A DNA stretch of 64,000 bases from Butyrivibrio sp. Lineage in GTDB: Bacteria; Bacillota; Clostridia; Lachnospirales; Lachnospiraceae. This document shows positions 28,011-42,684 of the stretch, piece by piece. Position 1 is the first letter of the stretch. The number at the start of each line of letters is the position of its first letter. The stretch covers positions 16,836-80,835 of the forward strand of contig JAGAAO010000046.1 of NCBI GenBank assembly GCA_017615275.1, given 5' to 3'. The notes below the pieces were generated by a model. The model did not search any database and was not told the origin of the DNA. It worked only from the letters and a program-made list of their open reading frames with translations. The position numbers and the translations under genes are program-made.

Positions 28011-28943
28011 ATGGCGAATATTTATAAAGGCGCGTTGGGGCTTGTTGGAAATACCCCACTTGTAGAAGTTGTAAATATAGAAAAGGAGCTTTCACTTAAG
28101 GCGACGGTACTTGTTAAGCTTGAATATTTTAATCCCGCGGGAAGCGTAAAGGACAGAATTGCAAAAGCTATGATCGAAGACGCTGAGGCAAAGGGACTGT
28201 TAAAGGAAGGTTCGGTTATCATAGAGCCTACATCAGGTAACACAGGTATAGGTCTTGCTGCAATCGCTGCAGTAAAGGGATATCGTACTATTCTTACAAT
28301 GCCCGAGACAATGAGTGTCGAGAGAAGAAGCATTCTTAAATCATACGGTGCAGAGATTGTTCTTACAGAAGGACCTAAGGGAATGAAGGGGGCTATCGAG
28401 AAAGCGGAGGAATTTGCAAAAGAAATTCCTAATTCATATATTCCCGGGCAGTTTGTAAATCCTTCCAATCCGGCAGCGCACAAGGCAACAACAGGTCCTG
28501 AGATCTGGAAAGATACAGACGGGAAGGTTGATATATTCATAGCAGGTGTAGGCACAGGCGGAACTGTTACAGGAACCGGAGAGTATCTCAAAGAGCAGAA
28601 TCCCAATATTAAAGTTGTAGCCCTTGAGCCTGCAGATTCACCTGTTTTGTCGGAAGGTAAAGCAGGAGCACACAAGATTCAGGGAATCGGTGCGGGATTT
28701 GTACCGGATGTTCTGAACACGGAAGTATACGATGAAGTTTTCAAGGCATCTAATGATGATGCTTTCGAAACTGCAAGACTTCTTGCAAGAAAAGAAGGAA
28801 TATCAGTGGGAATCTCTTCGGGAGCGTCATTGTATGCAGCAATTGAATATGCCAAGAAACCCGAGAATGAAGGAAAAGTTATCGTAGCACTTCTTCCCGA
28901 CAGTGGAGACAGATATTATTCCACAGCGCTCTTTACAAAATAA
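28011..28943 (+). CDS. cysK: cysteine synthase A (O-acetylserine sulfhydrylase)
   Basis: Converts O-acetylserine and sulfide, or a thiocarboxylate carrier in some homologues, to cysteine. A 310-residue PLP enzyme with the lysine K47 in NPAGSVKDRIA, the substrate loop TSGNTGIGLA and the PLP-phosphate loop GVGTGGTVTG. An upstream in-frame extension to 27945 lacks an RBS; CGGAGGAAA precedes the ATG at 28011. First gene of the sulfur island, 28 bp before the MetY-like gene. A CysM-like role with a carrier protein, as in the mycobacterial CysO pathway, is a real alternative given the downstream genes. Confidence 0.93.
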   Translation: MANIYKGALGLVGNTPLVEVVNIEKELSLKATVLVKLEYFNPAGSVKDRIAKAMIEDAEAKGLLKEGSVIIEPTSGNTGIGLAAIAAVKGYRTILTMPETMSVERRSILKSYGAEIVLTEGPKGMKGAIEKAEEFAKEIPNSYIPGQFVNPSNPAAHKATTGPEIWKDTDGKVDIFIAGVGTGGTVTGTGEYLKEQNPNIKVVALEPADSPVLSEGKAGAHKIQGIGAGFVPDVLNTEVYDEVFKASNDDAFETARLLARKEGISVGISSGASLYAAIEYAKKPENEGKVIVALLPDSGDRYYSTALFTK

Positions 28944-28971
28944 AAAACTATTTTCCTAAGGAGACGACTCT

Positions 28972-30219
28972 ATGGAGTTTAACACTAAGTTGTTACATGG
29001 AAGATCTATATCAAAGAATCCCGGGAAAGAGATATTACCGCCTGTTTCGCAGGTGACGGCCTTTCAATACGAGAGTATGGAGGAGCTTGAGAAAGTTTTT
29101 GCTCATAAGAGCATGGGATATGCATATTCCAGGATTGGAAATCCTACGCTTACAGCTTTTGAACAGAGAGTAAACGAACTCGAAGGAGGAGTTGGGGCAG
29201 TCAGTTGCAGCAGCGGAATGTCGGCGATCACAATTGCACTTCTTGCAGTCTGTAGCAGCGGTGATGAAATAATCGTTGGAAGCGGATTGTACGGAGGGAC
29301 GATTTCTCTTTTCCACGATCTGGAAAAGTTTGGTATACACACCATATTCGTTGATAAGCTGACCGCAGATTCGGTAAAAGAGCATCTCACAGACAAGACG
29401 AAGGTTGTTTTCGGTGAACTTATTTCCAACCCTTCGCTGAGAGTGCTTGATGTAGCTGAAGTTTCAAAAGTGGCACATGAGGCAGGTATTCCGCTTTTTG
29501 TGGATTCCACAACAGCGACACCGTATTTGGCAAGACCGCTTTCGCTGGGAGCAGATGTGGTGATCCATTCCACTTCCAAATACATAAACGGCGGAGGAAA
29601 TTCCATCGGAGGAATCATTGTTGACGGAGGACGTTTTAGCTGGGATTTCGATAAGCATACAGCGCTTTCGGATTTTAGAAAATTTGGAAAAAGAGCTTTT
29701 CTTTTGAGACTTCGCACAGATATATGGGAGAATTTCGGCGGATGCATGGCTCCTGCCAATGCATACCTCAGTTATATAGGGCTGGATACACTTGGGCTTA
29801 GGATGGAAAAAATATGCAGAAATACCGATGCGCTTGCAAAAGCCCTTGAAGGTATCTCAGGAATAGAGGTCTGTTATCTGACTCTGGACAGCCATCCCGA
29901 TCACGGCTACGTAGAATCGGAACTTTCCGGATACGGAGGAGGAATACTTAATTTCAGAGCCGGTTCAAAAGAAAGAGCGTTTAAAATTATCAATTCTTTA
30001 AAGTATGCACTTATAGCAAGCAATATAGGTGATCTTAGAACTTTAGTAATACATCCTGCGTCAACTCTTTACATTCATACAGGTAAAGAGGAAATGGAAG
30101 CCGCCGGTGTTTATGAGGACACTATAAGAGTAAGCGTCGGAATTGAGGACGCAGAGGACCTGATAGCAGATTTTAGGCAGGCTATCGAGAATGCAGATTT
30201 AAAAGATGAAAATGAATGA
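28972..30219 (+). CDS. O-acetylhomoserine sulfhydrylase-like Cys/Met PLP enzyme
   Basis: A 415-residue member of the Cys/Met metabolism PLP family. The PLP lysine is K203 in HSTSKYINGGG; other motifs are YSRIGNPTLTAFEQRV and VIHPASTLY. The lack of the YF/R pattern of cystathionine lyases and the operon suggest gamma-replacement with a sulfur donor, making homocysteine, but methionine gamma-lyase or cystathionine synthase are alternatives. It is only distantly similar to the MetY at 38368. It overlaps the JAMM gene by 14 bases, tying it to carrier-dependent sulfur transfer as in the Wolinella MetY/Hcy pathway. Confidence 0.82.
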   Translation: MEFNTKLLHGRSISKNPGKEILPPVSQVTAFQYESMEELEKVFAHKSMGYAYSRIGNPTLTAFEQRVNELEGGVGAVSCSSGMSAITIALLAVCSSGDEIIVGSGLYGGTISLFHDLEKFGIHTIFVDKLTADSVKEHLTDKTKVVFGELISNPSLRVLDVAEVSKVAHEAGIPLFVDSTTATPYLARPLSLGADVVIHSTSKYINGGGNSIGGIIVDGGRFSWDFDKHTALSDFRKFGKRAFLLRLRTDIWENFGGCMAPANAYLSYIGLDTLGLRMEKICRNTDALAKALEGISGIEVCYLTLDSHPDHGYVESELSGYGGGILNFRAGSKERAFKIINSLKYALIASNIGDLRTLVIHPASTLYIHTGKEEMEAAGVYEDTIRVSVGIEDAEDLIADFRQAIENADLKDENE

Positions 30220-30646
30220 AGAATTTATTCTTTTTAATGAGGCATACAGAGAAATAAAGCATCGCGCTTTAATGCAATATCCCAATGAAGCATGCGGACT
30301 GTTATTGAGTAGATGGAGCGATCATGCTATTGAGATTGCTTCAGTCGCAGACAACAAGGCAGATGGGGAAGAGAAAGCCGGTTATTTCAAAATCGACCCG
30401 ATTCAGCTGTATGAGATGGAGCGGGAGATTGAGGAAAAAGGATATGAAGTTATTGGCTTTTTTCATTCTCACCCTGACAAGCAGGCGGTTCTGTCTTATG
30501 CAGACAACAAAAATATGATTCCGGGAATGGTGTATATCATAGTTTCGGTTACAGAAGATACCGTACACGATCTAAGAGGATACATGAAAGATACACCTGA
30601 AGGGGATGTTTACGAGATACGGATTGAGGAGGAATCCATATTATGA
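30206..30646 (+). CDS. JAMM/MPN+ metalloprotease (Mec/HcyD-like), first copy
   Basis: A 146-residue zinc isopeptidase-like protein. The complete JAMM motif is present: E28 (PNEACG), H87-x-H89 (FFHSHP), S97 and D100. Relatives remove residues from the C-terminus of ubiquitin-like sulfur carriers: Mec of Mycobacterium releases cysteine from CysO-Cys, and HcyD of Wolinella trims HcyS. It overlaps the MetY-like gene by 14 bases and the carrier fusion by 4. Likely job: cutting after the Gly-Gly of the fused carrier domain in the next gene, or freeing carrier-bound amino acid. Start may be 30206 or the ATG at 30212. Confidence 0.88.
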   Translation: MKMNEEFILFNEAYREIKHRALMQYPNEACGLLLSRWSDHAIEIASVADNKADGEEKAGYFKIDPIQLYEMEREIEEKGYEVIGFFHSHPDKQAVLSYADNKNMIPGMVYIIVSVTEDTVHDLRGYMKDTPEGDVYEIRIEEESIL

Positions 30647-32100
30647 ATGTTTATATTTCGGCTACGCTCCGAAACTTTTTTGGAAGAAATGCCAAGGTTT
30701 CGGTAACGGCAAGTACAGTCAGAGGCGTGCTTGATTTTTTGATAGATGAATATCCCGAATCAAAAAAGATAATTTTTGATGAGAGCGGAGAAATAAGAGA
30801 TTTTATCAAAATATATATTGGTGATGAGGACAACACATCGAGTGATAAATGGGATCGTGCAATACCACAAGATACAGAAGTATTGCTTCTTCCTGCTATA
30901 GCGGGAGGAGCACCGAATGACAGCATTATCTCAGATGAGAGAAGAAAAGAAGTTTCTTTTGATGATTCGGAAGTAGAACGTTTTGGTAAGCATCTTTTGC
31001 TCAGAGAGATCGGTGTGAAGGGGCAGAAGAGAATAAAGGCCGCAAAGGTGGTCATCGCAGGTGCAGGTGCACTGGGATCTGCGGTTATACAGTATCTTGC
31101 GGCAGCAGGAGTGGGAACGATAAAGGTTGTAGATTTTGATGAGGTCTTTTTGGAGAATCTTCAAAATCAGGTAATACACACGACAAGAGATCTTAAGAGG
31201 CCCAAGGTTGCATCCGCAAGAGATACGGTAAGAAACATTAATAGAAGTATTATTTTTGAAGCTGAGAATGCAAGGCTCGACAGCGAAAATATTATTGATA
31301 TCATCTCGGGCTACGATCTTGTAATTGATTGCACAGACAACTACAAAGCCAGATATCTTATAAACGATGCCTGTGCATTTTGTGCCATTCCGCTTGTGTT
31401 TGGAGCAATTTATCAGTATGAGGGACAGGTGGGAATATTTAACCTTAACGGCGGACCGTGCTACAGATGTGCGTTTCCCGCACCTCCTCCGGCAGGTCTT
31501 GTACCTACATGTTCAGAGGGTGGCGCAATTAGCCCTCTTCCCGGAATTATAGGAAGTATTCAGGCTAACGAAGCACTTAAGTTGATAATAGGCATAGGAG
31601 AGCATCTTGACGGAAAGCTCCTTGTAGTGGACAGCCTTTATCTTCATACAAGAATAATCAATATAGAAAAAGACAGTAAATGTCCTTTATGCGGAGAACA
31701 TCCGACTATTACGGGAGTGCAGGAATTTGATTACGATGATTTCTGCGGACTTAAAGAAAATCAGGAAGAAGCGGCAATTGAGGGCTTCACTCCGGAAGAG
31801 CTTGCAAAGCGCATAGAGGATCAGGATTCAATAACTATAGTGGATGTGCGTGAACCTCATGAAAGAGCAATACTCAGGTTCCCAAATGCGATAGTCATAC
31901 CTATAGGTCAGCTTGTGCGTAGAATGAACGAGCTTAACCCGGATCAGGATACGATATTTATCTGTAAGCAGGGACAGAGAAGTATACTTGCGATCAATAC
32001 ATTAAGAGAAGCCGGATATACAGGACCACTCTATAACTTAAAGGGTGGACTTGATGCTATGAAGGATATTGTCTTCTCACATGAAGGTGCATGGTTGTAA
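30643..32100 (+). CDS. fusion of sulfur-carrier domain, E1-like activating enzyme and rhodanese
   Basis: A 485-residue three-domain protein. Residues 1-89 form a ThiS/MoaD/CysO-like beta-grasp carrier ending in LLLPAIAGG, with Gly88-Gly89 followed directly by APND and a linker. Residues about 108-360 are a MoeB/ThiF-type E1: nucleotide loop GAGALG (139-144), zinc cysteines C273/C276 and C347/C350, and candidate catalytic C290 (VPTCSEGG). Residues about 378-485 are a rhodanese with active-site C441 (FICKQGQRS). The carrier cannot be adenylated unless its Gly-Gly end is freed, so the adjacent JAMM protease likely cuts after G89. All sulfur-loading parts are in one chain: activation, persulfide and acceptor. 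Confidence 0.9.
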   Translation: MNVYISATLRNFFGRNAKVSVTASTVRGVLDFLIDEYPESKKIIFDESGEIRDFIKIYIGDEDNTSSDKWDRAIPQDTEVLLLPAIAGGAPNDSIISDERRKEVSFDDSEVERFGKHLLLREIGVKGQKRIKAAKVVIAGAGALGSAVIQYLAAAGVGTIKVVDFDEVFLENLQNQVIHTTRDLKRPKVASARDTVRNINRSIIFEAENARLDSENIIDIISGYDLVIDCTDNYKARYLINDACAFCAIPLVFGAIYQYEGQVGIFNLNGGPCYRCAFPAPPPAGLVPTCSEGGAISPLPGIIGSIQANEALKLIIGIGEHLDGKLLVVDSLYLHTRIINIEKDSKCPLCGEHPTITGVQEFDYDDFCGLKENQEEAAIEGFTPEELAKRIEDQDSITIVDVREPHERAILRFPNAIVIPIGQLVRRMNELNPDQDTIFICKQGQRSILAINTLREAGYTGPLYNLKGGLDAMKDIVFSHEGAWL

Positions 32101-32121
32101 TAGAAACATTATTACATCGCA

Positions 32122-32142
32122 ATTAGGCCACACCGGCTTAAT
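32122..32142 (+). other. intercistronic hairpin before the encapsulin gene
   Basis: ATTAGGCC pairs with GGCTTAAT (one G-U pair) around an ACACC loop, in the 75-base gap. It lacks a T-tract; it may set a new transcript end or protect the abundant shell mRNA. Confidence 0.4.
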
Positions 32143-32175
32143 AATATACAAATACATAATAAATGGAGGAATGAT

Positions 32176-33135
32176 ATGGCAAACGAGAAAGTACAGGCAA
32201 AAGAAGGAATTAACGCTTTAAGTGCAAAAGCTGCTTATAATCTGGCCAATGTCACAAAGACAAAACCCCAGTATGGAGCATTGACTCCCAAGTGGCTTAC
32301 CAAATTCCTTGAGTTCAAGGGACTTGAAACAGGTATCTTTAGAGTAAACAAGGTTGTTGAAGGCGAGACACCGCTTGATGTTTTGTGCAGTCAGACAAAG
32401 AAGTCAGACATTATCCCCGATGGTTATGTAGAGTATCAGACAGAGCCACGTGAATATGTTCTGAATTCAATTTCTACTATCATCAACGTTAACACTGCAG
32501 TTGAAGATGTTTACAGCGCTCCTTACGATCAGGTTCAGGAGCAGCTCAGTCTTGCTATCGATTCTTTGAGAGAGAGACAGGAGAGTCAGCTTATCAATAA
32601 TGATGACTACGGTCTTCTCAAGAACGTTGCAGATTCACAGAGAATTCAGACCAGAAACGGTGCACCTACTCCTGATGATTTTGATGAGCTTATCACAAAG
32701 GTATGGAAAGAACCTTCATTCTTCCTTGCTCATCCACGTGCGATCGCTGCATTTGAAAGAGAATGTACAAAGAGAGGTGTTCCGCCTGTAACTGTAAATA
32801 TCGCAGGAGGCACATTCCTTTCATGGAGAGGAATTCCTATCATTCCTACAGATAAACTTCTTGTAGACGGACTCAAGAATCCTAAGTCACAGAGCGGAAA
32901 GACCAATATTCTTCTTGTTCGTACAGGAGAAGCTAAGAGAGGCGTAATCGGTCTGTTCCAAGCCGGTCTTAAGAATGAACATTCAAGAGGACTTTCTGTT
33001 CGTTTCAGAGGAATTGATGATAAGGGAGTTGCATCTTATCTTTTATCTTTATACTGCTCTGCAGCAATTCTTGCAGATGATGCTATTGCAGTATTGGAAG
33101 ATGTAGAGGTAGGTGAGTACTATGACTACGATTGA
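32176..33135 (+). CDS. Family 2A encapsulin shell protein (SrpI-like)
   Basis: A 319-residue HK97-fold protein that self-assembles into a hollow protein shell. The sequence resembles SrpI and other Family 2A encapsulins: an N-terminal arm (1-40, ending near TKTKPQYGALTPKWL), the YRVN-like IFRVNKV, and GTFLSWRGIPIIPTDKLL in the P/A-domain region. Family 2A shells are known to enclose cysteine desulfurases, and exactly such a gene follows, overlapping by 14 bases. RBS TGGAGGA. Established knowledge links these shells to sulfur starvation and sulfur storage. Expected to be cytosolic and abundant. Confidence 0.93.
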   Translation: MANEKVQAKEGINALSAKAAYNLANVTKTKPQYGALTPKWLTKFLEFKGLETGIFRVNKVVEGETPLDVLCSQTKKSDIIPDGYVEYQTEPREYVLNSISTIINVNTAVEDVYSAPYDQVQEQLSLAIDSLRERQESQLINNDDYGLLKNVADSQRIQTRNGAPTPDDFDELITKVWKEPSFFLAHPRAIAAFERECTKRGVPPVTVNIAGGTFLSWRGIPIIPTDKLLVDGLKNPKSQSGKTNILLVRTGEAKRGVIGLFQAGLKNEHSRGLSVRFRGIDDKGVASYLLSLYCSAAILADDAIAVLEDVEVGEYYDYD

Positions 33136-34807
33136 GAGCTTGGCAGGAGTACCAAGCGCGGCTGAACTGAATGCTTTGGCTAACGAGCTCTTTCCGGATT
33201 TTACGGAAAGTGTATCTGCGGTGCCTGAACAGGGCGCTTCAGTTCCGGAGGTGAATGCTTCCGAAGAGACATTTGGATATGCAAACATTCCAAGTGCATC
33301 AGTCGGAGGTTTTGATTGGGAGCACCCCTTTGGATACGGCGGAGAATCTACCGATGAGTGGCTTAGAACTGTTGAGGGTGTGTCTGCACCCGAGGCGGAA
33401 TTTTTGCCCGGTGAGGGAGATGTTTCTGCGGTAACGGATACCGGAAGCGTATCATATTCTCCTGTTGTAGTGTCACAAGCGCAGGCGAAGGAAGGTGACA
33501 GAAAGATTGATGCGCCCACTTCACTTGACGGAGACGGCGTTACCAAAAAAGAAGGAAATGATGCACCATATTCATCTCGCGATGAGTCAATACGTATCGG
33601 TTCAAAAACGCTTGCACAGATCAGAAGTGATTTTCCGATCCTTTCGGAAAAGATTAATGGAAATAATCTTGTGTGGCTTGATAACGGAGCTACTACGCAG
33701 AGACCAAAGGCAGTAATAGATCGCCTTACTTATTACTATGAACATGAAAATTCAAATGTTCACAGAGGTGCGCACACTCTTGCGGCAAGATCTACAGATG
33801 CCTACGAAGGTGCAAGAGATATTGTCAGAGATTTCATAGGAGCTTCTTCGTCTGAAGAGATAGTTTTTGTAAGAGGTACGACGGAAGCAATAAACCTGGT
33901 TGCCAATGCTTACGTAAAGCCTATACTTGAGCCCGGAGATGAGATAATTGTTTCTATTCTTGAACATCACGCAAACATTGTTCCTTGGCAGCTGATAGCA
34001 CAGCAGACAGGAGCGGTGATAAAGGTTATTCCCTGTGATGAATCGGGACAGTTAAAGCTTCATGAGTATGAAAAGCTGTTTACTACAAAGACTAAATTTG
34101 TATCTGTGACACATGTATCAAATGTTCTCGGCACGGTTACACCTGTTGCGGAGCTCATTGCCATTGCTCACAGACATGGAGTTCGCATACTTATAGACGG
34201 TGCGCAGTCCGTAGCGCATATACCCGTAAACGTTACTGCGCTTGATGCAGATTTCTTTGTTTTTTCCGGACACAAGATATTTGCTCCTACGGGTATCGGT
34301 GTTGTATACGGAAAAAAAGAGCTTCTTGAAGCAGCGCAGCCATATCACGGCGGTGGAAATATGATCGCTGATGTTACATTTGAGCGCACGATATATAATC
34401 CCATTCCCAATAAGTTTGAAGCAGGTACGGGAAGTATTGCTGATGCTGTGGGACTTGGAGCAGCGCTTAATTATCTTTCTGAGATCGGAATGCCCTGCAT
34501 ATACAGATGGGAGCATGAACTTCTTCAGTATGCAATGAAAGAAATGAAGAATATTAAGGGACTGCATCTTATCGGAACAGCACTTAACAAGGCTTCCGTG
34601 CTTTCATTTAAACTTGACGGTTATTCGGACGAAGAGGTCGGAAATCGCCTCAATTCATACGGTATAGCTGTTCGTACAGGTCATCATTGTGCACAGCCTG
34701 TCCTTAGACACTTTGGATACGAGGGATCCGTAAGACCGACACTTGCACTATACAATTCACCTGACGATATTGATGCTTTGGTAAAAGTACTTAAGACATT
34801 TGCATAA
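33122..34807 (+). CDS. cysteine desulfurase with encapsulin-targeting N-terminal extension
   Basis: A 561-residue SufS/CsdA-type PLP enzyme that takes sulfur from cysteine as an enzyme persulfide. Residues 1 to about 157 are a low-complexity, acidic and Ser/Pro/Gly-rich extension with short conserved-looking motifs (ELNALANELFPDF, FDWEHPFGYGG). Family 2A cargo desulfurases carry such extensions for shell loading. The enzyme part has PLP lysine K385 (FSGHKIFAPTG) and catalytic C523 (RTGHHCAQPVLRHF). The start may be the ATG at 33122 (RBS GAGGTAGG) or GTG at 33113; both overlap the encapsulin end, giving coupled translation. Confidence 0.92.
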   Translation: MTTIESLAGVPSAAELNALANELFPDFTESVSAVPEQGASVPEVNASEETFGYANIPSASVGGFDWEHPFGYGGESTDEWLRTVEGVSAPEAEFLPGEGDVSAVTDTGSVSYSPVVVSQAQAKEGDRKIDAPTSLDGDGVTKKEGNDAPYSSRDESIRIGSKTLAQIRSDFPILSEKINGNNLVWLDNGATTQRPKAVIDRLTYYYEHENSNVHRGAHTLAARSTDAYEGARDIVRDFIGASSSEEIVFVRGTTEAINLVANAYVKPILEPGDEIIVSILEHHANIVPWQLIAQQTGAVIKVIPCDESGQLKLHEYEKLFTTKTKFVSVTHVSNVLGTVTPVAELIAIAHRHGVRILIDGAQSVAHIPVNVTALDADFFVFSGHKIFAPTGIGVVYGKKELLEAAQPYHGGGNMIADVTFERTIYNPIPNKFEAGTGSIADAVGLGAALNYLSEIGMPCIYRWEHELLQYAMKEMKNIKGLHLIGTALNKASVLSFKLDGYSDEEVGNRLNSYGIAVRTGHHCAQPVLRHFGYEGSVRPTLALYNSPDDIDALVKVLKTFA

Positions 34808-34813: not shown

Positions 34814-34844
34814 TCCTGCCGGATGAGAGCCTCTTCCGGCAGGA
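34814..34844 (+). other. intercistronic hairpin before serine acetyltransferase
   Basis: TCCTGCCGGA and TCCGGCAGGA form a perfect 10-bp stem with an 11-base loop and no T-tract. It contains the apparent ATG at 34823, which argues for the GTG start at 34877. Possible mRNA stabiliser or partial terminator for the shell-cargo pair. Confidence 0.6.
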
Positions 34845-34876
34845 GAAATGCAAATATTGGGGAGGCTGGGAAATTC

Positions 34877-35836
34877 GTGAGCGGAATAATCAATGAAGAT
34901 GAGATCAATAAGATCGTTCTAAATGTTTTTAAAGACTTTGAAGGTGGCAAGACTATAGATGCCATTGATATCTACAATAAACCTGACAAGGCGGAAGTCA
35001 GGGAACTTGTCGATGATTTTTTTAGAATAATTTTCCCGGGATATTTCAGGGATCGTTCATACAAGATTTTTAATCCAAAGAACAGTTTTGCCGTTACTTT
35101 GGAGGACATTTTTTATCATCTCAACAAGCAGGTAACTCTTGCTCTTGATTTCTGTAATAAGAGGGGAACTCTTACCGAAAAACAGCGCCGGGAAGAGAGC
35201 TACAGAGTATGCAAGATTTTTTTCGAGCGCATTCCTGCTGTCAGAGAATATGTAGAATCAGATTTGATCGCTGCTTATGACGGGGATCCCGCAGCCGGTT
35301 GTATGGAAGAGATAATTCTTGCTTATCCGGGACTTATGGCGATTACCGTTTACAGAATAGCGCATGAGCTTTACAAGTTGCAGATTCCTGTGCTTCCGAG
35401 ACTTATGACCGAGTATGCTCATTCTGAGACGGGGATAGATATTCACCCCGGAGCACAGATAGGAAAATACTTTTTTATCGATCACGGAACGGGCATTGTC
35501 ATCGGGGAGACCGCTGTTATCGGTGAGCACGTGAAAATATATCAGGGTGTCACAATAGGAGCGTTATCTACAAAAGGCGGACAGAAACTATCCGGAGTTA
35601 AGAGACATCCCACAATCTGTGATAATGTTACTATCTACGCCGGAGCGTCAATTTTGGGCGGAGATACAATAATAGGCGAAAATACTGTTATCGGCGGTAA
35701 TACATTCATAACAAGATCGATAGGTGCAGACACAAGAGTAAGCATGAAGAATCTTGAAATGGAATATCGCACAAATAACAATGAAAGAAAAATAGAAGAG
35801 TTGAAACAGGGTGATCAGTGGTATTACGTGATCTGA
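34877..35836 (+). CDS. cysE: serine O-acetyltransferase (EpsC-type)
   Basis: Makes O-acetylserine from serine and acetyl-CoA, the substrate of CysK. 319 residues from the GTG at 34877, which follows GGGGAGG; the upstream ATG at 34823 lies in a hairpin and is rejected. The N-terminal half is helical (long EpsC form), and the C-terminal half is a left-handed beta helix of hexapeptide repeats with the active-site regions AHSETGIDIHPGA and IDHGTGIVIGETAVIG. It sits between the desulfurase and carrier genes, completing the cysteine branch of the island. Confidence 0.92.
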   Translation: MSGIINEDEINKIVLNVFKDFEGGKTIDAIDIYNKPDKAEVRELVDDFFRIIFPGYFRDRSYKIFNPKNSFAVTLEDIFYHLNKQVTLALDFCNKRGTLTEKQRREESYRVCKIFFERIPAVREYVESDLIAAYDGDPAAGCMEEIILAYPGLMAITVYRIAHELYKLQIPVLPRLMTEYAHSETGIDIHPGAQIGKYFFIDHGTGIVIGETAVIGEHVKIYQGVTIGALSTKGGQKLSGVKRHPTICDNVTIYAGASILGGDTIIGENTVIGGNTFITRSIGADTRVSMKNLEMEYRTNNNERKIEELKQGDQWYYVI

Positions 35837-35868: not shown

Positions 35869-36075
35869 ATGAAGATTACAGTTGCAGGAGAAAAAAAAGA
35901 ATTTGCTGACGGAATTACAGTTTCTGAGCTCATTGAACTTGAGCAGGTAGAGACACCGCAGTATGTCACAGTTTCCGTAAATGAGGAATTTATAAATGCC
36001 GAGGATTTTGAAACACATAAACTCAGTGAGGGCGATGAGGTTGAATTCCTGTACTTTATGGGAGGAGGAAGATAA
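35869..36075 (+). CDS. ThiS/HcyS-like sulfur carrier protein with GGGR tail
   Basis: A 68-residue ubiquitin-fold sulfur carrier. The C-terminus is FLYFMGGGR: Gly65-67 followed by one Arg, where true ThiS ends in Gly-Gly. Extra C-terminal residues are the hallmark of carriers activated by a JAMM protease, as in HcyS of Wolinella succinogenes. RBS AAGGAGA. The stop codon overlaps the E1 gene start by one base (TAATG), a tight coupling. Expected to carry sulfur as a C-terminal thiocarboxylate for homocysteine or cysteine synthesis rather than thiamine, since no thiamine genes are here. Confidence 0.9.
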   Translation: MKITVAGEKKEFADGITVSELIELEQVETPQYVTVSVNEEFINAEDFETHKLSEGDEVEFLYFMGGGR

Positions 36076-36884
36076 TGGCATTTACCAATGAACAGCTTGA
36101 AAGATATTCAAGGCATATTATTTTAAAAGAGATTGGTGTAAAGGGGCAAAAGAAGCTTCTGAATGCGAAGGTGCTCATTATCGGAGCAGGCGGACTCGGA
36201 GCCCCGGCAGCTCTTTATCTTGCTGCAGCCGGAGTTGGAACAATCGGCATTGTCGACGCAGACGTAGTCGATCTTTCCAATCTTCAGAGACAGGTTATCC
36301 ATACAACAAATGATATAGGGAAAAAGAAGGTCGAATCAGCAGCCGAGACCATGCGCCAAATTAATCCCGATGTCACTGTAAACACATATTATCAATTTGT
36401 AAGCAGCGATAATATTCTTGATCTGATAAAAGATTATGATTTTGTTATTGACGGAACAGACAATTTCGCAGCTAAGTTCCTTATCAATGATGCCTGCGTA
36501 ATGGCAAAGAAACCACTTTCACATGCGGGAATCATCAGATTCAAGGGACAGCTTACGACGATCATTCCGGGAGAAGGTCCTTGCTACAGATGTATATTCA
36601 AGGATCCGCCGCCAAAGGATGCGGTACCTACCTGCAAGCAGGCAGGAGTTATAGGTGCTATGGGAGGTGTTATCGGCTCACTTCAGGCTATGGAAGCAGT
36701 TAAGTACATTACGGGAGTAGGAGATCTTCTTGTGGGATATCTTCTTACTTATGATGCGCTTAAAATGGAATTCCATAAGATCAAGCTTCCGCCCAGAGGA
36801 AAGGGCTGTGCGGTATGTTCGGATGAACCTACTATCACAGAGCTTATAGATTACGAGCAGCCTGCATGTGATTTAAAGCATTGA
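36075..36884 (+). CDS. E1-like sulfur-carrier adenylyltransferase (HcyF/MoeB/ThiF)
   Basis: A 269-residue enzyme that adenylates the carrier's C-terminal glycine so that sulfur can be added. Nucleotide-binding loop GAGGLGAP (37-44), acidic DADVVDLSNLQRQ, zinc cysteines C170/C173 and C245/C248, and candidate catalytic C187 (VPTCKQAG). It is a stand-alone paralogue of the E1 part of the fusion at 30643, about half identical by eye in the core motifs, and lacks the rhodanese. It is coupled to the carrier gene and lies 16 bp before the JAMM gene. Confidence 0.92.
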   Translation: MAFTNEQLERYSRHIILKEIGVKGQKKLLNAKVLIIGAGGLGAPAALYLAAAGVGTIGIVDADVVDLSNLQRQVIHTTNDIGKKKVESAAETMRQINPDVTVNTYYQFVSSDNILDLIKDYDFVIDGTDNFAAKFLINDACVMAKKPLSHAGIIRFKGQLTTIIPGEGPCYRCIFKDPPPKDAVPTCKQAGVIGAMGGVIGSLQAMEAVKYITGVGDLLVGYLLTYDALKMEFHKIKLPPRGKGCAVCSDEPTITELIDYEQPACDLKH

Positions 36885-36900
36885 TAACGGAGAATGTATT

Positions 36901-37338
36901 ATGAAGATAACAATTACAAGATCTGATCTTGACAGGATTGTTGAGCATGCTCTTTTGGAAAGACCGGATGAGGCATGCGGACTTATAGCCGGAACAGACA
37001 ATGAGGACGGAATCAGAGAGATAAAGAAAGTGTATCTTTTGACTAATATAGATCACACTAATGAGCATTTTTCCATAGATCCGAAAGAACAGCTTAAGGC
37101 TATTAAGGATATGCGTGCAAACGGGCTTAAGCCAATCGGAAACTGGCATTCTCATCCTGAGACACCTTCACGTCCTTCAGAAGAGGATAAAAGACTTGCA
37201 AATGACAGTAAAGCAAGTTATCTTATCCTTTCTCTCATGGAGGAAGGAAATCCTGTCTTAAATGCTTTTCATGTGGAAAGCGTTAACGGTGAGAAGGAAG
37301 TCCGAAAGGAAGAACTCATCATTAAGGAGGATAAATAA
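36901..37338 (+). CDS. JAMM/MPN+ metalloprotease (Mec/HcyD-like), second copy
   Basis: A 145-residue zinc protease with full JAMM motif: E24 (PDEACG), H83-x-H85 (NWHSHPET), S93 and D96. Probably trims the Arg (and perhaps a Gly) from the GGGR tail of the carrier encoded two genes upstream, the step performed by HcyD in Wolinella, or releases cysteine like Mec. It is a diverged paralogue of the copy at 30206, so each carrier has its own protease. The stop is followed directly by the TusA-like start. Confidence 0.9.
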   Translation: MKITITRSDLDRIVEHALLERPDEACGLIAGTDNEDGIREIKKVYLLTNIDHTNEHFSIDPKEQLKAIKDMRANGLKPIGNWHSHPETPSRPSEEDKRLANDSKASYLILSLMEEGNPVLNAFHVESVNGEKEVRKEELIIKEDK

Positions 37339-37590
37339 ATGGCAGATATAGAATTTAATGTTGATGATACGGTTGATATTACAGATGTACAGTGCCCTGT
37401 TACTTTTGTTAAGACAAAGGTGGCACTTGAAGAGCTTGATGACGGCCAGATTCTTCAGGTTCATATAAATGACGGTGAGCCTATACAGAATGTACCAAGA
37501 AGTGTCAAAGAAGAAGGACACGAGGTGCTTAAGATACAGGATAATGGCGATGGTACCTTTGAACTGTTTATAAAGAAAGTCGGAGATTGA
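37339..37590 (+). CDS. TusA-family sulfurtransferase
   Basis: An 83-residue TusA-like protein, a small persulfide relay. The family cysteine is C19 in VQCPVTFVKTKVALEEL, matching the CPxxxxxxK pattern of TusA/SirA/YedF proteins. It follows the JAMM gene without a gap and has RBS AAGGAGG within it. It probably passes sulfur from the cysteine desulfurase or rhodanese to the E1-bound carrier. Last gene of the operon before a terminator. Confidence 0.85.
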   Translation: MADIEFNVDDTVDITDVQCPVTFVKTKVALEELDDGQILQVHINDGEPIQNVPRSVKEEGHEVLKIQDNGDGTFELFIKKVGD

Positions 37591-37609: not shown

Positions 37610-37649
37610 AGCGACCTGCTCATGATCAGAGCAGATCGCTTAATTTTTT
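37610..37649. terminator. bidirectional terminator between TusA-like gene and regulator
   Basis: AGCGACCTGCTC with GAGCAGATCGCT (one mismatch) followed by seven T on the + strand. It overlaps the end of the minus-strand regulator gene at 37626. Confidence 0.8.
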
Positions 37650-38021
37650 TGCATAAAAGAAATTTCTCTCAAGTTCGTAGAATTCATTCCACATCGATAG
37701 TGTCTTGCATTTATCCGAACGGTCACATTTTGCGGCGTTGTCTTCAAGGCACACCACGGGAGCAAATGAACCTTCCATATGTTCTATTATTTCTCCGACA
37801 GAGTACTCGGAAGGTTCTCGAATAAGCTTATAACCGCCGTGTTTGCCGCTTGCGCTTGATATAAGCCCGCTTGATACAAGCTCTTTTGCGATTATCTCCA
37901 GGTATTTTTTGGAAATATCTTGTCTTTCGGCTATATCTTTCAGCGGGATGAGACCTGAATCTTTGTTGGAGGCAAGATCTATCATGAGCCTTAATGCATA
38001 TCGCCCTTTGGTCGTAAACAT
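37626..38021 (-). CDS. Rrf2/IscR-like transcriptional regulator
   Basis: A 131-residue Rrf2 protein with an N-terminal winged helix (GLIPLKDIAERQDISKKYLE) and three cysteines C91, C99 and C105, spaced C-x7-C-x5-C. IscR holds an Fe-S cluster through three cysteines, though with x5 spacing in E. coli; CymR, the Bacillus cysteine regulator of the same family, senses via CysK. Either type of signal is possible here. RBS AAGGAGGG. Divergent from the metY operon and convergent with the encapsulin operon, it is the natural repressor or activator of the shared ACCTATTGAC sites. Confidence 0.88.
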   Translation of the reverse strand: MFTTKGRYALRLMIDLASNKDSGLIPLKDIAERQDISKKYLEIIAKELVSSGLISSASGKHGGYKLIREPSEYSVGEIIEHMEGSFAPVVCLEDNAAKCDRSDKCKTLSMWNEFYELERNFFYAKKLSDLL

Positions 38022-38128
38022 GTAAGTCCCTCCTTATTCTTTTCTCTTTTATTAAAGATAACGTATTACCCGGCTTTTTTTGAATTAGGCTTAGGTTATC
38101 ACCGGGGATAAGTTTTAGTTATCGTAAA

Positions 38129-38162
38129 ACCTATTGACGAACTAGGTGAATATGTTTTATCA
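38129..38162 (+). promoter_or_regulatory. metY promoter region with shared sulfur operator
   Basis: ACCTATTGACGAACTAGGT (38129-38147) has inverted arms ACCTA and TAGGT nine bases apart and contains a TTGACG -35. A -10 such as TTATCA at 38157-38162 would be 17 bases away. It matches the cysK site at 27846-27864 at 16 of 19 bases. Confidence 0.65.
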
Positions 38163-38197
38163 TCTTTTCAAGATAAATGCAAGGGAGAAAAAAAGAT

Positions 38198-38281: not shown

Positions 38282-38367
38282 CAGGCATCGGAGTAATAAG
38301 AAAAAAGCAACTTATATATAAATAAATAGAAATCATAAATCTTAAATAGTATAGGAGAGAAATAATC

Positions 38368-39651
38368 ATGAGTAATTATAAATTTGAAACACTTCAGTTA
38401 CACGTTGGACAGGAACAGCCCGATCCCGCTACAGATGCAAGAGCGGTTCCGATTTACCAGACTACATCATATGTATTTAGAAATTCACAGCATGCAGCAG
38501 ACAGATTCGGACTTGCTGATGCAGGAAACATATACGGAAGACTTACAAATTCAACACAGGATGTGTTCGAGAAGAGAATCGCCGCACTTGAAGGCGGAAG
38601 CGCAGCACTTGCGGTTGCATCAGGAGCAGCAGCGATCACATATACAATACAGGCGCTTGCAGCAAACGGCGGACACATAGTAGCACAGAAGACAATCTAC
38701 GGCGGAAGCTACAATCTTCTTGCACACACACTTCCTCAGTATGGAATAACAACTACATTTGTAGATGCACATAATCTTGCTGAGATCGAGGGCGCGATCA
38801 AAGAGAACACAAGAGCTATCTATCTTGAGACTTTGGGAAATCCCAACAGTGATATCCCGGATATCGATGCTGTTGCTGAGATAGCTCACAAGCACGGACT
38901 TCCTCTTGTGATCGACAATACTTTCGGAACACCTTATCTCATCAGACCTATCGAGCACGGTGCAGATATCGTAGTTCATTCAGCTACAAAGTTTATCGGC
39001 GGACACGGAACAACACTTGGCGGAATCATCGTTGAGTCAGGTAAGTTCAACTGGAAAGAGAGCGGCAACTATCCTCAGATAGCAGCGCCCAATCCAAGTT
39101 ACCACGGTGTATCTTTCTATGATGCCGTTGGCCCCGCTGCTTTCGTTACATACATAAGAGCAATTCTTTTAAGAGATACAGGAGCTACTATTTCACCTTT
39201 CAACGCATTCCTGCTTCTTCAGGGTGTTGAGACACTTTCACTTCGTCTCGACAGACATGCAGAGAATACCAAGAAAGTAGTTGAGTTCCTTTCAAAGCAC
39301 CCTCAGGTTGAGAAGGTTAATCACCCTTCAATCGCAGATCATCCCGATCACGCTTTGTATGAGAAGTATTTCCCGAACGGTGGAGCTTCTATCTTTACAT
39401 TCGAGATCAAGGGCGGCAAAGAGGCAGCTTGGAAGTTCATCGACAATCTCGAGATCTTTTCACTTCTTGCTAACGTAGCAGATGTAAAGAGCCTTGTTAT
39501 CCATCCTGCAAGCACAACACACTCACAGCTTACAGATGAGGAACTTGAAGATCAGGGAATCACACAGAGCACTATCAGATTGTCAATCGGAACAGAGCAC
39601 GTTGACGATATCATTGCAGATCTTGAGAAAGGTTTTGCGGCAGCAAAATAA
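38368..39651 (+). CDS. metY: O-acetylhomoserine sulfhydrylase
   Basis: A 427-residue PLP enzyme of the canonical MetY type, making homocysteine from O-acetylhomoserine and sulfide or carrier-bound sulfur. PLP lysine K208 in HSATKFIGGHGTTLGG; NIYGRLTNSTQDVFEKR and VIHPASTTHSQL are MetY-specific. RBS AGGAGAG. It opens an operon with a cystine-type ABC transporter and is preceded by a Cys/Met leader peptide and operator. In Wolinella, MetY accepts sulfur from the HcyS carrier, which fits the carrier genes 0.8 kb upstream. Confidence 0.95.
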   Translation: MSNYKFETLQLHVGQEQPDPATDARAVPIYQTTSYVFRNSQHAADRFGLADAGNIYGRLTNSTQDVFEKRIAALEGGSAALAVASGAAAITYTIQALAANGGHIVAQKTIYGGSYNLLAHTLPQYGITTTFVDAHNLAEIEGAIKENTRAIYLETLGNPNSDIPDIDAVAEIAHKHGLPLVIDNTFGTPYLIRPIEHGADIVVHSATKFIGGHGTTLGGIIVESGKFNWKESGNYPQIAAPNPSYHGVSFYDAVGPAAFVTYIRAILLRDTGATISPFNAFLLLQGVETLSLRLDRHAENTKKVVEFLSKHPQVEKVNHPSIADHPDHALYEKYFPNGGASIFTFEIKGGKEAAWKFIDNLEIFSLLANVADVKSLVIHPASTTHSQLTDEELEDQGITQSTIRLSIGTEHVDDIIADLEKGFAAAK

Positions 39652-39674
39652 GAAGAAATAGGGAGTAAATTATT

Positions 39675-40601
39675 ATGAAAAAGAATCTTTTAAACAAATT
39701 GGGAACAATTATTACATCGGCAGCACTTCTCGGAGCATCACTTACAGGATGCGGAAGTGCCGGTGCTGAGAATACAGCAGCAAGTGAAGACGTAACCATA
39801 GCTGACGCAGAGGTTGCAAAGGCAGAGTCTGCGGAAGAAACTGCTACAGTTTACAGAACTCTCGACGAGATCAAGGAGAGCGGAACGATCAATATCGGTG
39901 TGTTCTCCGACAAGAGCCCCTTCGGATACGTTGATGAGAACGGCGAGTATGCAGGATATGATGTTTATTTTGCAGAGAAGATCGGGGAGGATCTCGGAGT
40001 AAAGATCAACTATGTTTCAACAGAAGCTGCCAACAGAATTGAGTATCTCCAGACAGGAAAGGTGGATATCATTCTTGCCAATTTCACCGTAACTGAAGAG
40101 AGAGCTCAGGAAGTTGATTTTGCACTTCCTTACATGAACGTTGCACTCGGTGTTGTTTCACCCGAAGACAAAGTAATCGAGAGCCTTGATAATGTCGGAG
40201 CAGACGACAAGATCATCGTTATTTCGGGAACAACAGCAGAGACTTATCTTGAGAAGAACTATCCAAACATCAAGCTTCAGAAGTACGATGCGTACGCAGA
40301 GGCAAAGACAGCGTTTGAGAACGGAAACGGTGTTGCTTGGGCAAATGATAATACAGAGGTAATCGCTTTCGCACTTGAGAACGAGGGCTACAAAGTAGGA
40401 ATTCCTTCACTCGGAAGTGCAGACACGATCGCACCTGCTGTAACAAAGGGCAACGAAACACTTCTTACATGGCTCAATGAAGAGATTGAGACAATCGGAA
40501 AAGATAACTTCTTCCACAAGGACTATGAAGAGACACTTCTTGAGACATACGGAAAAGATTATGAAGACACACTCGTAGTTGAGAGTGGTAAGGTTCAGTG
40601 A
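39675..40601 (+). CDS. cystine/amino-acid ABC transporter substrate-binding lipoprotein
   Basis: A 308-residue extracellular binding protein. Lipobox LTGC with C26, then an Ala/Glu-rich linker and a family 3 binding-protein fold (SGTINIGVFSDKSPFGYVDE, YVSTEAANRIEYLQTGKVDI, ANFTVTEERAQEVDF). It lies 23 bp after metY, and together with two permeases and an ATPase makes a full importer. Cystine or another sulfur amino acid is the expected ligand from context. Confidence 0.9.
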   Translation: MKKNLLNKLGTIITSAALLGASLTGCGSAGAENTAASEDVTIADAEVAKAESAEETATVYRTLDEIKESGTINIGVFSDKSPFGYVDENGEYAGYDVYFAEKIGEDLGVKINYVSTEAANRIEYLQTGKVDIILANFTVTEERAQEVDFALPYMNVALGVVSPEDKVIESLDNVGADDKIIVISGTTAETYLEKNYPNIKLQKYDAYAEAKTAFENGNGVAWANDNTEVIAFALENEGYKVGIPSLGSADTIAPAVTKGNETLLTWLNEEIETIGKDNFFHKDYEETLLETYGKDYEDTLVVESGKVQ

Positions 40602-40602
40602 T

Positions 40603-41262
40603 ATGGATATAAATGTGCTAATAACGTATATACCTCTGTATAATGAAGCACTTCTCCTTACATTTAAGATTGGTATGCTTGGCATCCTGACAGCCTTCGC
40701 CATAGGGCTGTCAGGGGCAGCAGCCGTTTATTTCAAAGTTCCTGTAGTTAAAAAAATATTGGAAATATACATTGAGCTGTTCAGGAATACACCATTACTT
40801 GTGCAGCTTTTTTTCATTTATTTTGCACTTCCGAAACTTGGAATAAGAATTGACGCAGAGACCTGCGGAGTGCTGGGACTTGGACTTATAGGCGGAGCGT
40901 ACATGATTGAGACGCTTAGGAGCGGTTTTGAATCTATCGACAAAGTGCAGAGTGAAAGCGCTCTTTCACTTGGAATGACAAGGAGGCAGATGTTTGGAAG
41001 TATCATACTTCCGCAGGCTTTTTCCGTAAGTATGCCCGGAATCATGGCGAACGTCATCTTCCTGTTAAAAGAAACTTCGGTGTTCTCTACGATAAGTCTT
41101 ATGGATCTGATGTTTACAGCCAAAGATCTGATAGGTATGTATGCAAAGACTATAGAGTGCCTTTTCCTTTTGGTTGTCTATTACCTCATCATGCTCCTTC
41201 CTATATCTGTTCTTGGATCATTCATAGAAAGGAGAGTACGCTATGCACAATTTGGGGATTGA
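40603..41262 (+). CDS. amino-acid ABC transporter permease (first subunit)
   Basis: A 219-residue HisM/GlnP-type permease with about five helices and the EAA loop GMTRRQMFGSIILPQAFSVSMP near the middle. A TTG at 40579 would overlap the binding-protein gene; the ATG at 40603 has GGTAAGG upstream and is chosen. Overlaps the second permease by 20 bases. Confidence 0.9.
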   Translation: MDINVLITYIPLYNEALLLTFKIGMLGILTAFAIGLSGAAAVYFKVPVVKKILEIYIELFRNTPLLVQLFFIYFALPKLGIRIDAETCGVLGLGLIGGAYMIETLRSGFESIDKVQSESALSLGMTRRQMFGSIILPQAFSVSMPGIMANVIFLLKETSVFSTISLMDLMFTAKDLIGMYAKTIECLFLLVVYYLIMLLPISVLGSFIERRVRYAQFGD

Positions 41263-41917
41263 TGTTCTTTTCAAAGGAACCAATATGATAAGACTTCTCA
41301 AAGGGTTATGGGTATCTGTAGAGATAAGTCTCATCGCGGTTTTGATAAGCATCGTGCTTGGACTTGTGATGGGCATACTCATGACATCCAAGAGTAAAGT
41401 AATAAGATTTATCTTAAGAGTGTATCTTGAGGTAGTCAGGATCATGCCTCAGATGGTCCTGTTGTTTATAGTCTATTTCGGTACAACAAGAGTTTTCGGT
41501 CTTAATATTTCTGCGGAAGCTTCGGCGATAATTGTATTTGTTTTCTGGGGAACTGCTGAAATGGGCGATCTTGTGAGGGGATCAATAAAAAGCATACCGA
41601 AGATACAGTATGATTCGGCGTATGCGCTTGGAATGGACAAAATTCAGGTGTACACGGCGATCATACTTCCGCAGACAATAAGGCGACTGATACCGCTTTC
41701 CATCAATCTTGTCACCAGAATGATAAAGACGACATCGCTTGTGATGATGATAGGAATAGTTGAAGTGTTAAAGGTTGCCCAGCAGATAATAGAAGCCAAC
41801 AGAAAAGCTTCGCCCAACGCGGCATTCGGAGTGTTCGCGGTGGTATTTCTTTTGTATTTTGTAGTATGCCGGACAATTAGCGGATTTGCGGTAAAGCTTG
41901 AGAAAAGGTGGACATAG
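41243..41917 (+). CDS. amino-acid ABC transporter permease (second subunit)
   Basis: A 224-residue permease with the coupling loop YALGMDKIQVYTAIILPQT. It pairs with the upstream permease to form the membrane channel, an arrangement less common than homodimers in this family. AAGGAGAG is its RBS, inside the previous gene. Ends overlapping the ATPase start region. Confidence 0.9.
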   Translation: MHNLGIDVLFKGTNMIRLLKGLWVSVEISLIAVLISIVLGLVMGILMTSKSKVIRFILRVYLEVVRIMPQMVLLFIVYFGTTRVFGLNISAEASAIIVFVFWGTAEMGDLVRGSIKSIPKIQYDSAYALGMDKIQVYTAIILPQTIRRLIPLSINLVTRMIKTTSLVMMIGIVEVLKVAQQIIEANRKASPNAAFGVFAVVFLLYFVVCRTISGFAVKLEKRWT

Positions 41918-41919
41918 AT

Positions 41920-42684
41920 TTGAGTGAAAAAGATATTGAGCAGGCAGAAATGCTCGTGGAAGTAAAAAACTTACATAAAGAATTTAACGGGAATGTCATC
42001 CTTGGGGATATCAACCTTTCCGTAAAAAAGGGTGAAGTGGTGGTTGTTATTGGTCCCTCCGGATGCGGAAAGAGTACGTTCCTTAGGTGCCTCAACGGCC
42101 TTGAGAAGATCCAGGGCGGAACCATTGCCGTTGACGGACTTTATGTGGAACCCGATAAAAAAGATATTACCAAGATCCGCCAGAAGATCGGAATGGTATT
42201 TCAGTCATATGAACTTTTTCCTCACAAGACTGTCCTTGATAACGTGATACTCGCACCTGTCATGGTACAAAAGAGGGATAAGAAAGATGCGACTAAAGAG
42301 GCTTTGGAACTTCTTGAGAAAGTCGGACTTGCTGATAAAAAAGATTACTATCCGCGTCAGCTCTCCGGTGGACAGAAGCAGAGAGTTGCGATAGTCAGAG
42401 CTCTTTTGATGCATCCTGAAGTTCTGTTGTTTGATGAAGTAACGGCGGCTCTCGATCCCGAAATGGTTCACGAGGTTTTGCAGACAATGCTTGAGCTTGC
42501 AAAGTCAGGATCCACCATGATAATCGTCACTCACGAAATGGCTTTTGCCAAAGCTGTCGCCGACAGAGTTGTATTTTTTGACGGAGGCGAGATTGTTGAA
42601 GAATCCTCCGACGTAAAGAACTTCTTCGAGAATCCTTCGACCGAAAGGGCAAAGAGATTTTTGAAGACATTTGCGTATGAATAA
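41920..42684 (+). CDS. amino-acid ABC transporter ATP-binding protein
   Basis: A 254-residue ATPase with Walker A GPSGCGKST, Q loop FQSYELFPHKTV, signature LSGGQKQR and Walker B VLLFDEVTAALDP, where the usual DEPTSALDP has V and A substitutions. It powers the cystine-type importer. Start is uncertain: the TTG at 41920 follows AGGTGG by nine bases; GTG 41908 and ATG 41950 are alternatives. A strong terminator follows. Confidence 0.9.
   Translation: MSEKDIEQAEMLVEVKNLHKEFNGNVILGDINLSVKKGEVVVVIGPSGCGKSTFLRCLNGLEKIQGGTIAVDGLYVEPDKKDITKIRQKIGMVFQSYELFPHKTVLDNVILAPVMVQKRDKKDATKEALELLEKVGLADKKDYYPRQLSGGQKQRVAIVRALLMHPEVLLFDEVTAALDPEMVHEVLQTMLELAKSGSTMIIVTHEMAFAKAVADRVVFFDGGEIVEESSDVKNFFENPSTERAKRFLKTFAYE

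Follow-up and report, generated by a model that had tools for sequence, protein, structure and literature searches.

A family 2A encapsulin-desulfurase locus linked to a carrier-E1-rhodanese fusion in Butyrivibrio and related shells: a candidate route from a sulfur compartment to protein thiocarboxylates

Encapsulin-type shells are virus-derived proteins, and in Acinetobacter baumannii a desulfurase encapsulin has reportedly been found to store crystalline elemental sulfur; we know of no described route by which sulfur leaves a family 2A compartment. Among systems built on protein thiocarboxylates, the HcyS/HcyD/HcyF/MetY homocysteine pathway of Wolinella and the CysO/Mec/CysM system of Mycobacterium are said to combine a JAMM-trimmed carrier with an E1, and to our knowledge neither includes a shell. 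The Urm1 system has Uba4 as its E1-rhodanese, and no JAMM partner is known to us for Uba4/Urm1, MOCS3 or MoeZ. Here we describe a locus in which a family 2A shell gene stands between a carrier-E1-rhodanese fusion and a cysteine desulfurase, located in a 64,000-nucleotide stretch of Butyrivibrio sp. DNA (hereafter the window; contig JAGAAO010000046.1 of assembly GCA_017615275.1, which comprises 3.18 Mb in 99 contigs and is 84.8% complete).

For SrpI and CyD of Synechococcus elongatus, the N-terminal domain of CyD is reported to be both required and sufficient for in vitro loading (PMC8049743). Giessen 2021 reports that, of the accessory genes in family 2A desulfurase operons, those for acetyltransferases and rhodaneses show the strongest enrichment, and proposes a rhodanese as sulfur acceptor (PMC8346489); fused E1-rhodaneses may be among those enriched rhodaneses. 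NFS1 is given as the sulfur donor to MOCS3 in PMC3625234, and the Iyer 2006 account of neighborhoods 4b/4c and 4e describes ThiS/MoaD proteins with an E1 (accompanied by rhodanese or SirA/TusA), a JAB gene and sulfur enzymes (PMC1779556). The words "encapsulin" and "desulfurase" have no occurrences in the main text of Iyer 2006 (PMC1779556), and we found no open-access paper linking a desulfurase encapsulin to JAMM, a sulfur carrier or ThiF, subscription literature lying mostly outside the scope of the search.

Gene identities were assigned by Pfam and NCBIfam profile scans, with scores compared with curated cut-offs, for the window genes from 27184 to 44661. On the plus strand, cysK (28011) begins a run of genes that ends with one of the TusA family (37590), and neighboring genes in it either overlap or stand no more than 75 bases apart. 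A first-pass annotation had proposed that this run couples an encapsulin-desulfurase compartment to two carrier/E1/JAMM modules; all of its reading frames are present, its assignments of cysK, the shell, the ThiS-type carrier, TusA, metY and the SufS-type desulfurase domain are borne out over curated cut-offs, and two ThiF/E1 domains, two Prok-JAB domains and a rhodanese (PF00581) are confirmed by profile matches. The shell gene (32176..33135, plus strand) encodes 319 residues and matches the family 2A model NF041162 at 488.7 bits (cut-off 380), with the family 2B model at 378 bits, under its cut-off of 400. PF19307 (317.9 bits, cut-off 22.8) is its sole Pfam domain, and no cyclic nucleoside monophosphate (cNMP) domain was found. 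The earlier proposal depended on an HK97-fold shell at this position, and the shell is indeed predicted to have that fold, being matched by solved family 2A shells at up to 375.6 bits (8t6r, with 6x8m at 364.5 bits); the five best solved chains, at 324-376 bits, are SrpI and proteins named Major membrane protein I. The closest of them, 8t6r, is presumably the structure from the A. baumannii sulfur-storage study. A genome search found one copy of the shell in the host.

The cargo-type cysteine desulfurase follows (33113..34807, plus strand; the ATG at 33122 is the likelier start), scoring 781.1 bits with NF041166 (cut-off 800) and 540.9 bits with the SufS-type model TIGR01979 (cut-off 475.1). 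Its N-terminal extension of about 160 residues contains LANELFPDF, and among 69 distinct relatives the motif [AL][NR]xxFP[DE], which resembles LARLANEFFS of Synechococcus CyD, is present in 62, the strict form LANxxFPD in 54 and a further motif, F[DE][WY][EAD]HPF, in 48. Going by its family, the desulfurase would be enclosed in the shell. Directly upstream of the shell lies the fusion (30643..32100, plus strand), which joins a carrier domain (residues 1-89), an E1 domain (about 107-350; PF00899) and a rhodanese domain (about 380-478; PF00581), and upstream of this the first JAMM metallopeptidase, JAMM1 (30206..30646, plus strand; PF14464, 59.5 bits), with an HxHP..S..D motif.

Linkage between fusion and shell, the absence of which the first-pass annotation had named as grounds for giving up its proposal, proved to be conserved. 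For the main sample we took, out of at least 567 shell relatives, the 80 closest ones, each with flanks of up to 10 kb; locus frames were scored with profiles built from these same loci, so that distant carriers may escape, and linkage was counted only in loci whose DNA extends far enough. In all 74 loci with enough upstream DNA, the gene immediately 5' of the shell is the fusion; in the six remaining loci, the fusion is seen in two and its E1-rhodanese part in one, and the DNA ends within 0.2 kb in three. The desulfurase is likewise directly 3' of the shell in 75/75 loci, a JAMM gene lies within 2.5 kb 5' of the shell in 67/70 and an acetyltransferase within 3.5 kb 3' in 52/63, while a JAMM gene of either type is present in all 38 loci with 6 kb on both sides. 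The constant core is JAMM, fusion, shell and desulfurase, usually with the acetyltransferase.

Because these 80 loci had been picked by shell similarity, we turned also to a sample of 299 genomes from this family, taken out of a larger group without regard to the shell, and scored up to five fusion candidates in each. The shell is over its cut-off in six of them (a seventh, G015, matches at 19.3 bits only), and the full-length fusion occurs as seven copies in exactly those six genomes, each copy adjoining a shell gene (the window; L100-L105). Forty-two shell-less genomes of the family match the fusion profile, most over the E1 part alone; among the longer matches, that of G082 spans residues 106-460 and those of G267 and G102 reach back to 48-49. 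A perfect match of this kind, 6 in 299, would have a chance of 1.1e-12 if genomes were independent, which they are not fully, because the island seems to move. Linkage by chance, or as a quirk of a single genome, was rejected on the 74/74 relatives and the exact co-occurrence in six of 299 genomes, and we have high confidence that the linkage is real, conserved and restricted, as far as sampled, to one shell clade. In one genome (G135) there are two shell/fusion loci, L101 and L102; the flanks of L102, about 9 kb each, contain no match to JAMM or acetyltransferase.

The second module of the run comprises a MetY-like (OASS2) pyridoxal phosphate (PLP) enzyme (28972..30219, plus strand; PF01053, 350.3 bits), a free ThiS-type carrier with a GGGR end (35869..36075, plus strand; TIGR01683, 66.5 bits, cut-off 37.45), an E1 without a rhodanese match, E1b (36075..36884, plus strand; PF00899, 298.7 bits), a second metallopeptidase, JAMM2 (36901..37338, plus strand; PF14464, 93.1 bits) and the TusA-family sulfur relay protein (37339..37590, plus strand; PF01206, 73.6 bits, cut-off 28.6), whose motif CP[VILT]TF is present in 50/50 relatives' frames. 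Together with cysK, an O-acetylserine sulfhydrylase (28011..28943, plus strand; TIGR01139, 451.4 bits, cut-off 350.95), this places carrier, E1, JAMM and sulfhydrylase in one neighborhood, the gene set of a predicted protein-thiocarboxylate pathway. The serine O-acetyltransferase (34823..35836, plus strand) and the MetY-like enzyme of the first-pass annotation were upheld as family members but did not reach the curated cut-offs (TIGR01172, 164 of 210.65 bits; TIGR01326, 396 of 495.1 bits). Its view of two modules accompanying the shell held for the fusion and JAMM, which are constant, but less so for the second: carrier, E1 and TusA of this module are present in 26 of 33 full-context loci, and the module lies on either side of the core or is absent. 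Carrier, E1b, TusA and MetY-like enzyme occur together in 24 of these 33 loci, five have none of the four, two lack the MetY-like enzyme alone, and two have the MetY-like enzyme without carrier and TusA. We infer that the MetY-like enzyme is part of this module (module B) and that the acetyltransferase goes rather with the shell, although some loci have it after TusA.

The fused carrier domain has no Pfam match over the limit used, and its best curated model, SAMP1, reaches 44.7 bits of 60 (E 1.4e-11). In an AlphaFold model of the fusion (mean predicted local distance difference test score, pLDDT, 79.6), the predicted strands and helices of this domain are compatible with a beta-grasp fold, residues 85-90, including the Gly-Gly, being among the lowest-confidence ones. 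The best fold match by E-value is Uba4 (6yub, 1.6e-30), followed by MoeB and ThiF, which match over the E1 alone with a template modeling (TM) score of 0.93 to the target. Residues G88, G89, C273, C276, C290, C347, C350 and C441 are invariant in 32/32 aligned fusions (alignment A1, with 31 relatives hand-picked from 76), and the cysteines, which we take to be of zinc type (C273, C276, C347, C350) and to serve E1 transfer (C290) and rhodanese activity (C441), are those expected of a putative Uba4/MoeZ-type E1-rhodanese.

By sequence, both carriers have blocked C termini, a feature that the first-pass annotation had not remarked on. In 80/80 distinct fusions (L011-L090 plus L100, L102, L103 and L110), the carrier domain ends internally in P-x-x-[AV]-Gly-Gly and is followed by a linker of 20-34 residues (22 in 61 of them) before the E1. 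Among 58 distinct free carriers, 41 end one residue past the glycines, 15 two residues and one six residues past them, the pattern not fitting in one; the extra residue is mostly R (37/64 in a wider count), otherwise Q, AR, C, AF and others. As E1 chemistry requires a free glycine carboxylate, as in ThiS, MoaD and ubiquitin, a JAMM peptidase is probably required before either carrier can be loaded. The HxHP..S..D motif is whole in 57/57 JAMM2-type and 71/76 JAMM1-type frames (five JAMM1-type exceptions retain both His and the Asp, not the Pro), and the upstream-Glu pattern ExCG is found in 53/53 and 59/70 frames, respectively. JAMM1 is the fastest-changing part, with a median identity to the window of 37.5% (range 30.5-45.6%, n = 51 orthologues), the medians for shell, E1b and fusion being 92.6% (n = 80), 92.9% (n = 55) and 68.8% (n = 76).

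Outside the closest relatives, 398 genomes of the phylum yielded six besides the window's over the shell cut-off, and 391 of the class yielded five new ones. For nine of these 11, the DNA examined reaches 9 kb or more 5' of the shell, and one, G634 from another family, has the fusion together with module B. Among the eight without a fusion, L136 shows a stray E1-type frame at a distance of 5 kb. In three loci that were read frame by frame, by eye, L132 among them, the neighbors of the shell-desulfurase pair look mostly unrelated. At the two others, L111 and L132, the DNA ends 730 and 449 bases 5' of the shell with no fusion trace; a divergent frame at L132 may, by eye, be a homoserine acyltransferase. 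Among 198 genomes of the phylum of G692, two are over the cut-off, G692 itself and G1246, the latter with a 3.8 kb locus holding two shell frames and a desulfurase, with no carrier or E1 in 843 bases 5'. Seven of 32 plasmid records with a shell-like match were opened, and one, the Aliarcobacter cibarius plasmid pACIB (L112:3001-12324), carries separate frames for JAMM, carrier, E1, rhodanese, shell, desulfurase and acetyltransferase, of which JAMM is parted from carrier, and E1 from rhodanese, by insertion sequence (IS) elements of the IS110 and IS5 families.

A tree of 44 shells unites the 27 fusion-bearing ones in one branch (support 100), which Aliarcobacter joins (support 87), so placed that the carrier/E1 link would have been gained once; the tree is a quick one with Shimodaira-Hasegawa-like approximate likelihood-ratio test (SH-aLRT) support only, long-branch warnings and a root that is not known, and the shells of L101-L118 and L132-L136 entered it as their last 330 residues. 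At least five species of the window's genus lack the shell, shell identity to the window is 87.5-95.5% across the 80 loci, and same-clade shells with the same fusion are found in records named for two other phyla, a Treponema zioleckii contig (L087, best-segment identity 92%) and a Fibrobacter assembly (L088, best-segment identity 88%; possibly a binning error), which together suggest horizontal spread of the island.

The island is followed by an Rrf2-family regulator (37626..38021, minus strand; TIGR00738, 121.7 bits, cut-off 73.3), metY, an O-acetylhomoserine sulfhydrylase (38368..39651, plus strand; TIGR01326, 635.5 bits, cut-off 495.1), and a polar amino acid ATP-binding cassette (ABC) importer made up of a binding protein, two permeases and an ATPase (39675..42684, plus strand; PF00497, PF00528 twice, PF00005). 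The regulator had been called IscR-like, of which the Rrf2 family stood but the IscR and CymR models stayed under their cut-offs, leaving it IscR/CymR-like. Similarly, the supposed cystine-type importer is supported as a polar amino acid importer; cystine models are among its matches but no equivalog cut-off is reached (TcyN, 307 bits vs cut-off 406), and cystine is a plausible substrate. Further along, 43975-44664 encodes a CatA-like acetyltransferase family protein (PF00302) well under curated cut-offs (102 of 300 bits), and a second permease/ATPase pair, named by eye from reading frames, lies soon after the first importer (45590-47021).

A candidate main-operon promoter, TTGACA-18-TATTAT with the element TTGACNNACTANGTNNAT (27851..27880, plus strand; consensus scan 11 of 12), shares this element with a weak candidate metY promoter (38134..38163, plus strand), and allowing up to one mismatch the element occurs in the genome at 27851 and 38134 only, the pattern having been drawn from these two sites. 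A reversed control pattern has five matches in the genome vs two for the element pattern, promoter-like sites in the region show no excess (33 vs a shuffle mean of 31.5), and a looser pattern gave 12 matches in 85 loci (the 80 closest plus L101, L102, L104, L105 and L110), five of them about 400 bases before the acetyltransferase, that is, in or near the desulfurase coding sequence, with no conservation of the element at the operon starts of relatives. For these reasons, we regard the shared element as suggestive; it hints at joint control of the operon and of metY with the importer, perhaps by the Rrf2 regulator lying between them. The metY leader also contains an imperfect 15/30-base tandem repeat at 38221-38280 (CCGAATGTG...), and an Rfam scan of the window at gathering thresholds gave no match.

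In the host genome, within an assembly that is 84.8% complete, no match to the sulfite reductase family was found, and the sole match to the 3'-phosphoadenosine 5'-phosphosulfate (PAPS) reductase family lies in a WbuX-type amidotransferase. Sulfate assimilation was set aside as the sulfur source on these grounds, and sulfur probably enters as cysteine/cystine or sulfide. Other ThiF-family matches in the genome are limited to a TcdA-like protein (under cut-off) and a thiamine ThiF (over cut-off).

In the reading that we consider best, though we rate it somewhat short of an even chance, sulfur from the shell-desulfurase pair would pass by way of the fused rhodanese and a JAMM-freed carrier to acetylserine or acetylhomoserine. 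Within the family 2A shell, the enclosed desulfurase would take the sulfur from imported or spare cysteine, and this sulfur would be held there or exit as a persulfide, to be accepted by the fusion's rhodanese domain. JAMM1 (or JAMM2) would cut the carrier domain behind its Gly-Gly, the E1 would adenylate the freed carrier, and the rhodanese would supply the sulfur for a thiocarboxylate, as in Uba4/Urm1 or MoeZ. The thiocarboxylate sulfur could then be passed to acetylserine, provided by the acetyltransferase, to give cysteine, while module B (free carrier, E1b, JAMM2 and TusA as relay) would serve acetylhomoserine via the MetY-like enzyme to give homocysteine. Gene content, linkage, motifs and the blocked tails of the carriers are read directly from the DNA, whereas sulfur flow, cleavage, acceptors and cargo loading are inferred.

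Several observations weigh against this reading. Many family 2A systems manage without carriers: of the nine other shells from the phylum that have 9 kb or more of 5' DNA, eight lack the fusion, and in six of the seven plasmids (Azospirillum, Acinetobacter, Methylosinus, Variovorax, Synechococcus and Paraburkholderia) the carrier, E1 and JAMM profiles match nothing within about 9 kb, a stand-alone rhodanese being present in four of these six and an acetyltransferase in five. Carrier linkage as a general family 2A trait was rejected on these counts. The upstream JAMM is absent from 3/70 loci of the main sample, and the whole-chain root-mean-square deviation (rmsd) between the fusion model and Uba4 is 17.8, so that the Uba4 domain arrangement is unsupported for the fusion. 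Without true storage, nothing is gained by using the sulfur of cysteine to make cysteine again, and homocysteine could be made without carriers, since besides metY and the MetY-like gene the host has another acetylhomoserine sulfhydrylase over cut-off, as well as a cystathionine-type enzyme (under all cut-offs) that adjoins a PatB C-S lyase.

A possible alternative, which we think doubtful, is that shell and carriers are neighbors for the sake of regulation only, the shell storing cysteine sulfur and the carriers separately using sulfide to make cysteine and homocysteine, with one regulator turning on the whole set when sulfur is short and no direct hand-over. That shell and desulfurase exist elsewhere without carriers fits this view, as does the capacity of TusA and rhodanese to accept sulfur from any desulfurase, and the element common to both promoters weakly suggests shared control; however, it leaves unexplained why the full-length fusion is found solely in shell genomes and adjoins the shell, while module B moves or is missing. 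Detoxification, with shell and carriers absorbing surplus cysteine or sulfide in a gut rich in sulfide instead of answering a shortage, appears unlikely: many relatives come from rumen or gut hosts, judging by record titles, and sulfide is reactive, but synthesis is what the acetyltransferase, CysK and the MetY-like enzyme of this run suggest, and an amino acid importer adjoins.

The carriers might also be conjugated to proteins in the manner of archaeal small archaeal modifier proteins (SAMPs) and removed by the JAMMs, whose nearest curated model is desampylase (63.5 and 75.6 of 130 bits, under cut-off), just as the nearest for the fused carrier is SAMP1, also under cut-off; yet their neighbors are sulfur amino acid enzymes and no E2/E3-type family match was found among the window genes scanned, which makes this improbable in our estimation. 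We give least credence, and very little, to a role in thiolation of cofactors or tRNA (thiamine, molybdopterin or 2-thiouridine, as for ThiS, MoaD or Urm1). The resemblance of the E1-rhodanese to Uba4 and MoeZ would suit such a role, but a separate thiamine ThiF over cut-off lies beside frames that by eye resemble thiamine genes, and Iyer 2006 states that thiamine and molybdopterin neighborhoods lack a JAB gene (PMC1779556).

Returning to transfer from the shell-desulfurase pair to the carriers, we tentatively extend this reading, well below an even chance, to a distinct class of sulfur compartment: an inducible store in which a shell desulfurase is coupled, through its self-encoded cleavable carrier-E1-rhodanese, to thiocarboxylates that rebuild cysteine and homocysteine, and which evolved once, with separate genes as in Aliarcobacter and then fused, and spread among gut bacteria. 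The fusion, found only with the shell in the genomes sampled, offers a concrete candidate answer to the question of sulfur exit. If the reading is true, encapsulin sulfur stores and protein thiocarboxylates, two separate known fields, would be joined, a known sulfur-storage compartment would supply a protein-based route to cysteine and methionine, and the fusion would provide a bacterial example of a ubiquitin-like protein produced as a blocked, fused precursor.

Compared with described systems, module B is like those of Wolinella and Mycobacterium, with a carrier that here is predicted to be JAMM-trimmed, an E1 and a MetY-type acceptor. Uba4/Urm1, MOCS3 and MoeZ have the E1-rhodanese architecture in common with the fusion, as well as a cysteine desulfurase as donor, in our case a putative one, but their carrier is a separate protein, unlike the fused one here. 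For A. baumannii, a record (L114) contains both a rhodanese and an acetyltransferase, whereas the carrier, E1 and JAMM profiles match nothing there within 9 kb. Set against SrpI/CyD of S. elongatus, the likeness lies in the shell (53% identity over 88% of the query) and in a desulfurase with an N-terminal extension, carrying LARLANEFFS there (PMC8049743) and LANELFPDF here. An acetyltransferase and cysK are nearby in the Synechococcus locus, as here, whereas its rhodanese stands alone and no carrier, E1 or JAMM match occurs within 9 kb. Among the neighborhoods in Iyer 2006, 4b/4c are resembled by module A (the fusion with its JAMM), and 4e, with an E1 without rhodanese, SirA/TusA and an acetylhomoserine sulfhydrylase, is matched by module B; unlike in those descriptions, the carrier here is fused to the E1-rhodanese and a shell-desulfurase pair lies in the same run (PMC1779556). 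Every part of the locus is of a known kind, and its novelty lies in the combination of the shell-desulfurase pair with carriers.

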